Virus record (IMG/VR): IMGVR_UViG_3300025889_000909
Location: 1 to 24,474 of that record
DNA from: a virus
Strand: one strand, 5' to 3'
DNA length: 24,474 nucleotides
Below, one piece after another: positions 12,304 through 24,433 of the stretch. A program made the position numbers and the translations under genes. Below the pieces are notes generated by a model. It saw only the letters and a program-made list of their open reading frames with translations. It was not told the DNA's origin and did no database searches. How positions within the stretch are numbered: the stretch's first letter is position 1; every line of letters begins with the position of its first letter.

Positions 12304-13050
12304 TTAAATCTCCAATAATTCTTTAATATCAGATATGATAATTATTCCCATTGCCTCAGCTTTTTTTGTTTTTGCGGAAGCAATATTACTTTCATTAACT
12401 AGATATTTAGTATCTCTAGTAATGGATGTTTTTACTACGTAGCCTTTTTGTTGTAAAACTCCTTTTGCAATTTCTTTTGTTTTAAAAGAAAACAGTTTTC
12501 CAGTTATAACAACAACGGGACCAGAAGTTATTTCTTCTTGTGCAGTCTTCCACTCAAAGGGAAGATTTTTGTACTTATACGCATATTCAGTATTAAACCA
12601 ATGCATAAAGTTAAGTATCGTTTTTGCTCCTAGACCGGCTTCTAAAAGTTTTTGCTCTGTTACTTCTGTAATATTACTTATTTGAGAGCACAATTTCTCG
12701 GAAGCTGTTTTTCCAAATAAAGGAATAGAAAACGAACCTAAAAGGTTACTAAGACCCGCACTTTTGCTTTTCTCGATCTGATCCAATAATTTATCGGCTA
12801 GTGTAACACTATTCAGCTTACTTACTACATAGTCTCTATCTAATTCGTAAATATCTGATATATCGGATAGTTCCAGCGATGCAATAGTGGCAGGCCCTAG
12901 ACCTTTAATTTTTAGTGAAGAAGCAAAATGAGAAATAATTTTGCGACTTTTATCCGCACAATCACTGTTTCTACAGTACAGAAGATCATTTACCCATACA
13001 AGCTCAGAGTTACACCCTGGACAATGTGTAGGCGGCAAAATTTCTTTCAA
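12304..13050 (-). CDS. ligB: NAD+-dependent DNA ligase, C-terminal part (zinc finger, HhH, BRCT)
   Basis: The product carries the C-terminal half of bacterial LigA: a four-cysteine zinc finger (Cys10, Cys13, Cys26, Cys31 from the chosen start), helix-hairpin-helix segments (KIKGLGPATIASL and later GLGAKTILNF) and a BRCT domain over the last 75 residues (VVVITGKLFSFKTKEI...). With the ligA product it would make one complete ligase, as in T5. I place the start at TTG 13050 (248 residues), with GGGGA about nine bases upstream. A longer frame opening at 13107 would begin on the -35 box of promoter P2, upstream of the transcription start, so it is unlikely. Confidence 0.92.
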   Translation of the reverse strand: MKEILPPTHCPGCNSELVWVNDLLYCRNSDCADKSRKIISHFASSLKIKGLGPATIASLELSDISDIYELDRDYVVSKLNSVTLADKLLDQIEKSKSAGLSNLLGSFSIPLFGKTASEKLCSQISNITEVTEQKLLEAGLGAKTILNFMHWFNTEYAYKYKNLPFEWKTAQEEITSGPVVVITGKLFSFKTKEIAKGVLQQKGYVVKTSITRDTKYLVNESNIASAKTKKAEAMGIIIISDIKELLEI

Positions 13051-13078
13051 GTTACTTCTTCCCCAAAAATGAATATAT

Positions 13079-13107
13079 ATTATACATAAATCAACAAAAG
13101 ATGTCAA
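13079..13107 (-). promoter_or_regulatory. Sigma-70 promoter P2 (TTGACA-17-TATAAT), between ligA and ligB
   Basis: The minus-strand -35 TTGACA is at 13102-13107 and the -10 TATAAT at 13079-13084, with a 17-bp spacer; both hexamers are perfect. The upstream extension is GAAAAATAATTC, which contains the TAA stop of ligA. The predicted start near 13072 gives a leader of about 22 bases to the TTG start of ligB. It separates expression of the two ligase parts. Confidence 0.85.
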
Positions 13108-13110
13108 GAA

Positions 13111-14064
13111 TTATTTTTCTATACGTCTTGTAATTCTAGGTATAATATCGCCAGATCTTATTACTTCTACTTTACAGCCTATTTCCAAGTTTAAAGATCT
13201 GATATACTCTATATTATGTAAAGTAGCTTTTGTTATTCTAGCTCCGTCTATTTCTATAGGATCTAATATTCCCACGGGGGATACTACTCCACTTTTTCCA
13301 GTCTGCCAGATAACATTTATAAGAGTTGTTACTTTGCCTTCTTTTCTAGTTTTTAAGGCAAAAGAACCTCTTGGATGATGAGATGTCCATCCTTGTTTTT
13401 CATAGTCTTGATTATTATCAATTCTGAACACAATTCCATCTCTAGGAAACTGCTCATATTTATCTGCCGTGGAAACGGAGAACCCGTTTTCAGCAAAAAA
13501 TATCATGTCTTCTGAGAAAGAAGTTGTTATATATGGATAACACCCATGTACAATAAAGGACAGATCACGAGAGAGAAACTCATCTATGCTTTTAAGATTT
13601 AGGGAACCAGCAGCATAGTTTCTAGAGTTTGGTATTGACTTGGGAGAAACTATCTCTCCCGTGATCTGTATAGGTTGACTACTAAAAGATATTCTTTTAG
13701 GAACTAAGTTTTTAGCAAGGAACTTATCGGTAACATCAATACCATATTTTCCGTCACCCCTAGTCAGCACTTGTACTAAGTATCCGTTACTATAAGTAAC
13801 GGCAACAGACGCACCGTCTAGTTTTGGACTTGCAACTATTTTTCCTTTATAGGAAGATAAAGGATTTTGCCCTTGATCTTCATAGTGTTTTTGCAAACTG
13901 TATAAAGGATGTGTGTGCTTAACTTTTCCGTTACTATTATCAAGTTGATAACCTACTTCTTTCCAACTAGCCTGCTCTGCGAGAGCATCAAACTCTTCAT
14001 CAGACATAATCGGGGAGCCTTCATAATAGTGTCTGGCTGCTTTTTGTAGTAGTTTAATCAACAA
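13111..14064 (-). CDS. ligA: NAD+-dependent DNA ligase, N-terminal part (Ia, adenylation, OB)
   Basis: The 317-residue product has the NAD-binding Ia motif ARHYYEGSPIMSDEEFD (about 10-26) and the active-site lysine in SPKLDG (Lys81). TRGDGKYG, a GEIV segment and DGIVFRID mark the nucleotidyltransferase domain. The OB domain follows (KSGVVSPVGILDPIEI... ending EVIRSGDIIPRI). It stops before the zinc finger, which the next gene encodes. The start is TTG at 14064 with AAGGA eight bases upstream; a second TTG follows at once. The stop TAA lies within the extended -35 region of P2. The adenylation domain can probably self-adenylate alone, but nick sealing should need the ligB product. Confidence 0.94.
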   Translation of the reverse strand: MLIKLLQKAARHYYEGSPIMSDEEFDALAEQASWKEVGYQLDNSNGKVKHTHPLYSLQKHYEDQGQNPLSSYKGKIVASPKLDGASVAVTYSNGYLVQVLTRGDGKYGIDVTDKFLAKNLVPKRISFSSQPIQITGEIVSPKSIPNSRNYAAGSLNLKSIDEFLSRDLSFIVHGCYPYITTSFSEDMIFFAENGFSVSTADKYEQFPRDGIVFRIDNNQDYEKQGWTSHHPRGSFALKTRKEGKVTTLINVIWQTGKSGVVSPVGILDPIEIDGARITKATLHNIEYIRSLNLEIGCKVEVIRSGDIIPRITRRIEK

Positions 14065-23251: not shown

Positions 23252-23785
23252 TTAAGCATTACGTTTAAAAAATAGTCCGCTCTTTTTAAAAAATCCTTTT
23301 TTCATATCACTGATTTCTCTCAATACCTTAGTTTGTTTTTCGTGATAGTATAAATTATAAGAGCTAAATATATCAATCCAATACTCTGAAGATCTACAAT
23401 TTACATGATGATGCCCTGGAGTTCCTGGAGGCGCTGCGGTTACAAAAGCATATCTACATTGTGCAAAATTTTTCATAAAATTGGGTACGTATTCTTCTTC
23501 TACGTGCTCTAAAAACTCTACTGACCATGCAAGATCAAATTCTTGCTCTAGCTCACAGGTTCCGGCGGTATAATCATGAAGAATGCTATTTTCCACCCCC
23601 TTGATGGCGGAGGGGTCTCCGTCTATTCCTATCCATTTCTTTCCGTACCCCTCTACCACTCTCTTCATACCACCAGGACCACATCCGATATCTAGAACGG
23701 AGTTAAGTGTTATAATTGACTTTAGATAGGAAAAAGAACTTCTGTCTATATTAGTTACGTTGTTGTGTCCGCCTAGGTGTTTCAT
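23252..23785 (-). CDS. Small class I SAM-dependent methyltransferase
   Basis: The 177-residue protein has SAM motif I VLDIGCGPGG (30-39), an acidic residue after the second strand (GIDGDP, Asp55), the FDLAWSVEFLEHV stretch typical of small-molecule or sugar methyltransferases, and PPGTPGHHHVNC near the C-terminal half. There is no NPP(Y/F) motif, so DNA adenine methylation is unlikely. The substrate is unknown; phage relatives may modify sugars or proteins. It overlaps the upstream gene by 35 bases and ends five bases before the extended -35 of P7. Confidence 0.85.
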   Translation of the reverse strand: MKHLGGHNNVTNIDRSSFSYLKSIITLNSVLDIGCGPGGMKRVVEGYGKKWIGIDGDPSAIKGVENSILHDYTAGTCELEQEFDLAWSVEFLEHVEEEYVPNFMKNFAQCRYAFVTAAPPGTPGHHHVNCRSSEYWIDIFSSYNLYYHEKQTKVLREISDMKKGFFKKSGLFFKRNA

Positions 23786-24239
23786 TATTTTTAAACGAAG
23801 CTATTAATATATGCTTCTCTCCTTCTTTTACTTTTGTTATTGAATATTCAAGGTTTGAGTCAAAAAAGATAAAACTTCCTTGACTGTTTGCTTCTTCTGG
23901 CATTATTACATAATCGAATAATATTTTTCCACCAATACTCTTCTCTTCTTCATCTAGGACTAATAATGCTGTTACATCTGAATTTTCTTTTATAACTCCA
24001 TTACTTTTACTATTATAACGAAGCACATGAATATTTATAATTTCTAAGGGGGGAGCCTCCAGATATTTTACAGAGGTTCTATTAATTATTTCTTCTATTG
24101 TATAATACAAAGAAGCCCATTCGTAGTATCTGGGAAGAAACACAGATACCCCCGAAGTGGGCCAATTTGAATTTGCTTTTTGTGTAATATTTTTACAAAC
24201 AGCCTGAGGCATAGAAGAATAAAGACCGTGAATAAACAT
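23751..24239 (-). CDS. 2-oxoglutarate oxygenase-fold-like protein, metal site apparently degenerate
   Basis: The 162-residue protein starts at ATG 24239, with AGGAG five bases upstream; the frame remains open to 24317, but that part lies in a structured leader and looks non-coding. The order of segments recalls phage 2OG-Fe(II) oxygenases: IINIHVLRYNSKSNG, then SDVTALLVLD, GGKILFDY, GSFIFFDSNLEYSITKVKEGEKHI. Where the HxD and distal His are expected I read Asn86-Ser-Asp88 and Tyr132, so the iron ligands seem changed. It may be inactive or bind something else. The fold call is inference from pattern, not alignment. Confidence 0.5.
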   Translation of the reverse strand: MFIHGLYSSMPQAVCKNITQKANSNWPTSGVSVFLPRYYEWASLYYTIEEIINRTSVKYLEAPPLEIINIHVLRYNSKSNGVIKENSDVTALLVLDEEEKSIGGKILFDYVIMPEEANSQGSFIFFDSNLEYSITKVKEGEKHILIASFKNNETPRRTQQRN

Positions 24240-24398
24240 TGTTCTCCTAAGAGGGCAGGGCCGCCCCCTAGGTGTTTGGGGCGACCCTGCTTTGATAGAA
24301 ACCCATGTACTAAGCATTTCGTCGGTGGAGTGTAAAATGCTATGTACGACCTGCCCTCCCGAACAGCTTTACTGTCCACAAAAACATTATTTACAACA
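24240..24398 (-). ncRNA. GC-rich structured 5' leader, candidate regulatory RNA
   Basis: The 159-base leader between the predicted start of P8 and the ATG at 24239 is unusually GC-rich near its 3' end (34 of 50 bases over 24241-24290). Three helices can form. An outer stem pairs 24350-24360 with 24249-24259 (up to 11 bp, two G-U). Hairpin A pairs GTAC...AGCATTT with AAATGCT...GTAC. Hairpin B pairs 24278-24290 with 24255-24267 (13 bp, one G-U) around a 10-base loop. Outer stem and hairpin B compete for 24255-24259. The AGGAG ribosome-binding site follows at 24244-24248, and CUCC in the loop of A could pair with it. There is no U-run after B. I do not recognise a known riboswitch class. Confidence 0.62.
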
Positions 24399-24404
24399 GA
24401 AGAT

Positions 24405-24433
24405 ATTATCGCACAATGAAGATAAAATGTCAA
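24405..24433 (-). promoter_or_regulatory. Sigma-70 promoter P8 (TTGACA-17-GATAAT)
   Basis: The minus-strand -35 TTGACA is at 24428-24433 and the -10 GATAAT at 24405-24410, with a 17-bp spacer. The upstream sequence AAAAAAAGTAC is A-rich like the other copies but less similar. The predicted start near 24398 gives a long leader of about 159 bases, unlike the 0-30 bases behind the other promoters. Confidence 0.78.

Follow-up and report, generated by a model that had tools for sequence, protein, structure and literature searches.

The locus in this study raises the question of whether a long leader RNA, predicted ahead of a phage gene, is a regulatory element, and if so of what kind. The window, i.e., the whole 24,474 nt stretch of DNA analyzed, is an entire viral record in which all main genes lie on the minus strand and the DNA polymerase is ∼44% identical to those of T5-like phages. 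The leader is at the upstream end of this strand, ahead of the window's main genes, and stands at the start of the main early operon in a lineage of T5-like marine phages. The same strand carries an NAD-dependent DNA-ligase-like gene (12304–14064) that is apparently split into two ORFs, and a split gene of this kind is known from T5-like phages.

A near-consensus sigma-70-type promoter, TTGACA-N17-GATAAT (24405–24433, minus strand), precedes the leader; it is the sole such match in the window (0.02 expected), and the same position is kept in relatives. From this promoter and the ORF start, the transcript is predicted to begin near 24398, giving a leader of ∼159 nt (24240–24398, minus strand) before the ATG at 24239, with a Shine-Dalgarno sequence (SD), AGGAG, at 24244–24248 on the same strand, and serving both the first gene and the same-strand operon behind it. 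As reported in a preliminary description of this DNA, those other strong minus-strand promoters that were checked by eye have leaders of ∼0–30 nt, and the coordinates and minus-strand assignment that it gave for all leader features match the sequence. The first gene (23754–24239, minus strand) encodes a 162-aa protein that matches nothing in Pfam or PHROG and resembles a real 2OG-Fe(II) enzyme weakly (E 3e-5); it is probably a 2OG-oxygenase-like protein without metal ligands. The HxD motif and second metal histidine are absent from it, with LEYSITKV standing against LMHQVTKV in the active-looking relative in contig L024.

The leader is predicted to be strongly structured, with a fold of −62.5 kcal/mol for 165 nt compared to −45.1 ± 4.1 for shuffled sequences (z −4.27; 0 of 200 shuffles as low) and a z of −3.56 for a 121-nt core. 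The preliminary description had drawn a three-way junction from an outer stem and two hairpins, A and B, and all of these helices can form: the outer stem (24360–24350/24259–24249), in which all 11 pairs are standard and two are G-U, hairpin B (24255–24290, minus strand; 24290–24278/24267–24255) with 13 of 13 pairs and a 10-nt loop, and hairpin A (24347–24335/24319–24307) with CUCC at 24330–24327. That junction is, however, the minimum free energy (MFE) structure only for the truncated 121-nt piece, and the preferred fold of the full leader is instead hairpin A, hairpin B and a further hairpin, P2. Conserved coding sequence, which the preliminary description had named as one result that would overturn its reading, was not found in this region, as stop codons interrupt the frames in the homologues, which have no ORF in common.

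Homologues were sought by synteny and by sequence searches of viral contigs, yielding seven distinct leaders (the window, L100, L108, L116, L117, L118, and L119) that form one family. Searching with the 162-aa protein returned one near-identical record, L002, with a leader 100% identical over 295 nt. Relatives were also identified by their DNA polymerase and their whole records searched for the leader, giving a 76% match in record G003 (L100), and a core-pattern search of contigs gave L108. A small 81-aa protein served as a neutral anchor and was found at 27 loci, among which L116–L119 are clear relatives of the leader and L120–L139 are a looser second group. L116–L119 were reached through this neighboring gene, not the leader, yet the junction described below is present in them. 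L113, L114, and L115 duplicate L100, L108, and L002, respectively, and a methyltransferase relative, L005, was ruled out as a homologous locus because it is non-syntenic. Other exact-pattern core scans of viral and bacterial contigs gave no further members, the remainder being GC-rich chance or low-scoring matches, and BLASTN searches with four stretches of the leader, run against 50,697 records of cultured phages, returned nothing or short chance matches only. As L002 shows, the window leader forms one arm of a divergent promoter region, and the gene for the anchor protein lies on the opposite arm. The divergent promoter pair can be seen in L002 (1947–2040), L100 (10713–10824), and L108 (1401–1512), with −35 and −10 sequences alike, and it encloses a common CCTCAGAAAAAA stretch that is conserved across relatives and is a possible regulator site.

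The seven distinct leaders have in common three helices, P1, P2, and P3, around a GGGNGGGCNGGUC strand (present in 7/7), together with a CACUCCA loop and YGGG after P3. In the alignment of these seven sequences (A9), where the registers of P1 and P2 were set manually, using N padding, in a way that leans towards structure, 95.8% of cells pair and 20 of 25 pairs show changes on both sides, compared to 36–46% of cells paired in shifted registers. The covariation score for A9 is 0.823 against 0.319 for shuffled alignments (0 of 500 as high) and ≤0.18 for slid registers, and the register of P3 is identical in an unpadded alignment. A covariance model built from A9, R1, detects the junction at 24288–24386 on the minus strand of the window (93.5 bits, E 3.7e-27), although its source sequences, the window among them, match by construction. 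Across ∼1.4 Mb of DNA from related phages, R1 gives a single match in each record and no other credible one.

P1 (columns 1–6/100–105 of A9) changes on both sides in all six family pairs but is weak in the window, where UUUU (24380–24383) and AAAG (24290–24293) form only four A-U/G-U pairs. P2, formed by GGACAG (24372–24377) and CUGUUC (24361–24366), is 100% paired with double changes in four of six pairs, and P3 (24335–24347 with 24307–24319), which is hairpin A, is 95.2% paired with double changes in 10 of 13. The P3 loop, UACACUCCACCGACG (24320–24334), is near-invariant. Between P2 and P3 runs the conserved strand J23, GGGAGGGCAGGUC (24348–24360), which is complementary to 24253–24259, and P3 is followed by J31, AUGGGUUUCUAUC (24294–24306), holding the conserved YGGG and a 4-nt insertion that is peculiar to the window clade and can pair with the SD; all of these elements are on the minus strand. 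A fixed GGGAG-CUCC pseudoknot was considered and rejected, since J23 varies (A/U) while the loop is invariant, and covariation therefore gives it no support. In L116–L119, a further hairpin (GAATGGTAAATCGTTTATCATTC in L116, for example) is located exactly where the transcript is predicted to begin; it is absent from the window.

The leader is almost certainly a conserved structured RNA, and, with the structure kept in related marine phages while the letters changed, it is very likely a real control element. The suggestion of a conserved, riboswitch-like leader is thus borne out by compensatory changes in homologues, the evidence that the preliminary description itself had proposed to seek. The helices that it highlighted fared unevenly, in that hairpin A is family-wide as P3, but the outer stem and hairpin B are lineage-specific: in the nearest relatives, L100 and L108, the hairpin B columns would form 8–9 of 13 pairs in the window register and the outer stem columns 8–9 of 11, nearly all G-U, and the 3' strand of the outer stem (24249–24259) is unconserved outside the window sequence. 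The conserved junction is a different one, requiring P1 and P2, neither of which was listed. The CUCC loop had also been described as complementary to the SD, but the loop is conserved even where no SD adjoins, so pairing with the SD is not its main role.

What lies downstream of the core varies, being the 162-aa ORF, hsp20, lysozyme, or a terminator and then MazG. In the window and L002, hairpin B, the SD and the 162-aa ORF follow the core. L100 and L108 have a scored intrinsic terminator immediately after the core, in the hairpin B position, and then a new promoter and MazG; a simple terminator, another finding against which the preliminary description had set its reading, is thus present in these two relatives but not in the window, where hairpin B has no T-run. 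In L116, two small hairpins, an SD and hsp20 (PHROG 432) follow, hsp20 is directly downstream in the records of L117 and L118 (L150 and L153), and L119 has an SD and then a lysozyme-like gene, named from sequence. The junction leader accordingly lies between promoter and ribosome-binding site in the window, L002 and L116–L119, with the terminator instead in L100 and L108. In the window, hsp20 and lysozyme are 4.5–5.6 kb further down the same strand, and we infer that this was once the leader of an hsp20-lysozyme operon, behind which genes were later inserted.

The second group (L120–L139, ∼20 contigs) occupies the same locus ahead of hsp20 and has the arrangement hairpin-GGGNGGG-hairpin-YGGG, with helices that covary. 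An additional 4-bp helix shares the 5' arm of P3 and is 97.9% paired with five double-changed cells (register slide −1), which is evidence for two mutually exclusive states in that group, as judged from its alignment. R1 recognizes one sequence type (L121, L122, and L125) at E 0.31 but in the right place, and the model R2 left the first-group leaders unscored. The second group is akin to the junction family only probably, since the link is by position and motif and not by model score. Matches of R2 in L024, inside a gene, and in L177, without the P3 insert, were taken as chance. Two small tetraloop hairpins (CCGAAAGG type) lie directly before the SD in L120–L139 and covary, and several members have, close to the 5' end, a stretch of pyrimidines able to pair with the SD.

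On the best reading, these leaders form a new family of structured RNA that acts in cis and is probably a switch. We give regulation in cis by the leader a probability of roughly 0.85, and we lean, less firmly, towards a switch that is controlled by the core, for which a small molecule, a protein or temperature would be a candidate trigger. The junction would be the regulatory core, and its folding would decide what the variable downstream part does. In L100 and L108, GGGCAGG is complementary over 8–9 bp to GCCUGCCC, the 5' arm of the terminator (including CCUGCCC), so the competing helices of the preliminary description return in altered form, although those that it drew are lineage-specific. 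When free of the core, GGGCAGG would pair with CCUGCCC and break the terminator, such that an unfolded core would mean read-through and a folded core termination. In L100, the alternative pairing of J23 with the terminator arm has a predicted energy of −37.8 kcal/mol. The matched terminator fold, for which the count is limited to the 6-bp G-C portion of the stem, reaches −32.9, and a folded core should therefore favor termination; the MFE of −49.0 for L100 keeps the longer terminator.

For the window, whose hairpin is without a T-run, the likely target would be the SD. UUUCUA of J31 (24301–24296) can pair with UAGGAG (24249–24244), and an unfolded core may hide the SD in this manner while a folded core would free it. 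The SD of the window is largely paired in the predicted ensemble, which varies with the amount of downstream sequence included, and the J31-SD pairing depends on the insertion found only in the window clade. For L116–L119, the ensemble prediction leaves the SD at least partly unpaired, and by eye there is neither a downstream complement of the conserved strand nor a J31-SD pairing. For both outputs we infer the mechanism from predicted energies. The fullest version of this reading is less likely than not: a new riboswitch or polymerase-modifying RNA class in marine T5-like phages, in which one core has terminator- and SD-type outputs in close relatives and controls an early or chaperone operon.

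The same core could instead be a regulator-binding or autoregulatory site, where a phage or host protein and not a small molecule binds the GGG strand and the CACUCCA loop. Conservation of single-stranded motifs with variable helices would suit a protein site, as would downstream genes that have no metabolic pathway in common, but no candidate binding protein was identified and the same evidence fits a ligand aptamer. This account is rather unlikely.

Antitermination of the put type is also unlikely. The folded nascent RNA would bind RNA polymerase just past the promoter and allow read-through of terminators along the long operon. HK022 putRNA is known to work in this manner by itself (PMC9378689). 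The window leader resembles putRNA in being a phage leader RNA just behind an early promoter, so that an effect on elongation is possible; the promoter is strong, the operon contains all main window genes on one strand, the leader is independent of the first gene, and in L100 and L108 an intrinsic terminator comes at once behind the core. However, the leader differs from putRNA in being a single-copy three-way junction, which occurs once in each record and is lacking from the divergent operon, and comparison with put, made through Rfam only, gave no match. In L100 and L108, moreover, the terminator is immediately followed by a new promoter, so read-through is not needed there.

Less likely still is a small phage RNA that has a promoter and a terminator of its own and acts in trans, its CACUCCA loop pairing with ribosome-binding sites; in the window, loss of the terminator would have turned this RNA into a leader. 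In L100 and L108, the promoter, the structured RNA and the terminator do form a unit, with the next gene having its own promoter, and CUCC is an anti-SD motif, but in the window and L116–L119 the RNA continues into an SD and ORF, and a role in cis fits the loop and its position equally. It is very improbable that the leader has no function, as a GC-rich patch that folds by chance or as a mobile hairpin in decay, for although the GC-rich hairpin B is restricted to the window clade, there is covariation over seven distinct leaders, whole-leader identity in L002 and a fold z of −4.3.

The cis-acting leader is very likely previously uncatalogued. The comparison with Rfam advised in the preliminary description gave no gathering-score match to the 4227 models of Rfam 15, with chance matches or none in permissive scans, and no description of the leader was found in the open-licence literature. 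The closest known kind is the manA-type leader of marine phages. In marine phages, Weinberg et al. (PMC2864571) describe leaders of the manA and wcaG types, manA being found ahead of ibpA chaperone genes as well; it resembles the structured 5' leader described here in that ibpA-type (hsp20) genes follow it and hsp20 follows several members of this family. Nevertheless, manA (RF01745) has no hit in 17 records even with the cutoff relaxed to E ≤ 10, and the consensus of this family is matched by none of the Rfam models. Riboswitches share with this family a conserved core, a swapped terminator or SD platform, and, in L100 and L108, a core strand complementary to the terminator arm, but the leader matches no class, and the downstream genes of its members, with no shared metabolic theme or pathway, point to no metabolite. 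RNA thermometers (ROSE, fourU) are brought to mind by the several members that lead hsp20, a small heat-shock gene, but a simple hairpin that melts differs from a core of several helices and invariant loops, and there is no Rfam match; moreover, no conserved helix includes the SD, and predicted SD pairing differs among members. Likenesses to G-quadruplex, hammerhead, and T-box elements were considered, and no Rfam model matched.

Structured regulatory RNAs known from lytic phages are few, and those whose close relatives carry different expression platforms are fewer still. The strong covariation, short core and natural terminator and SD variants of this family make ligand, protein or polymerase hypotheses directly testable in vitro, and the leader would reveal how phages of this kind set the timing of their early operon and of hsp20.
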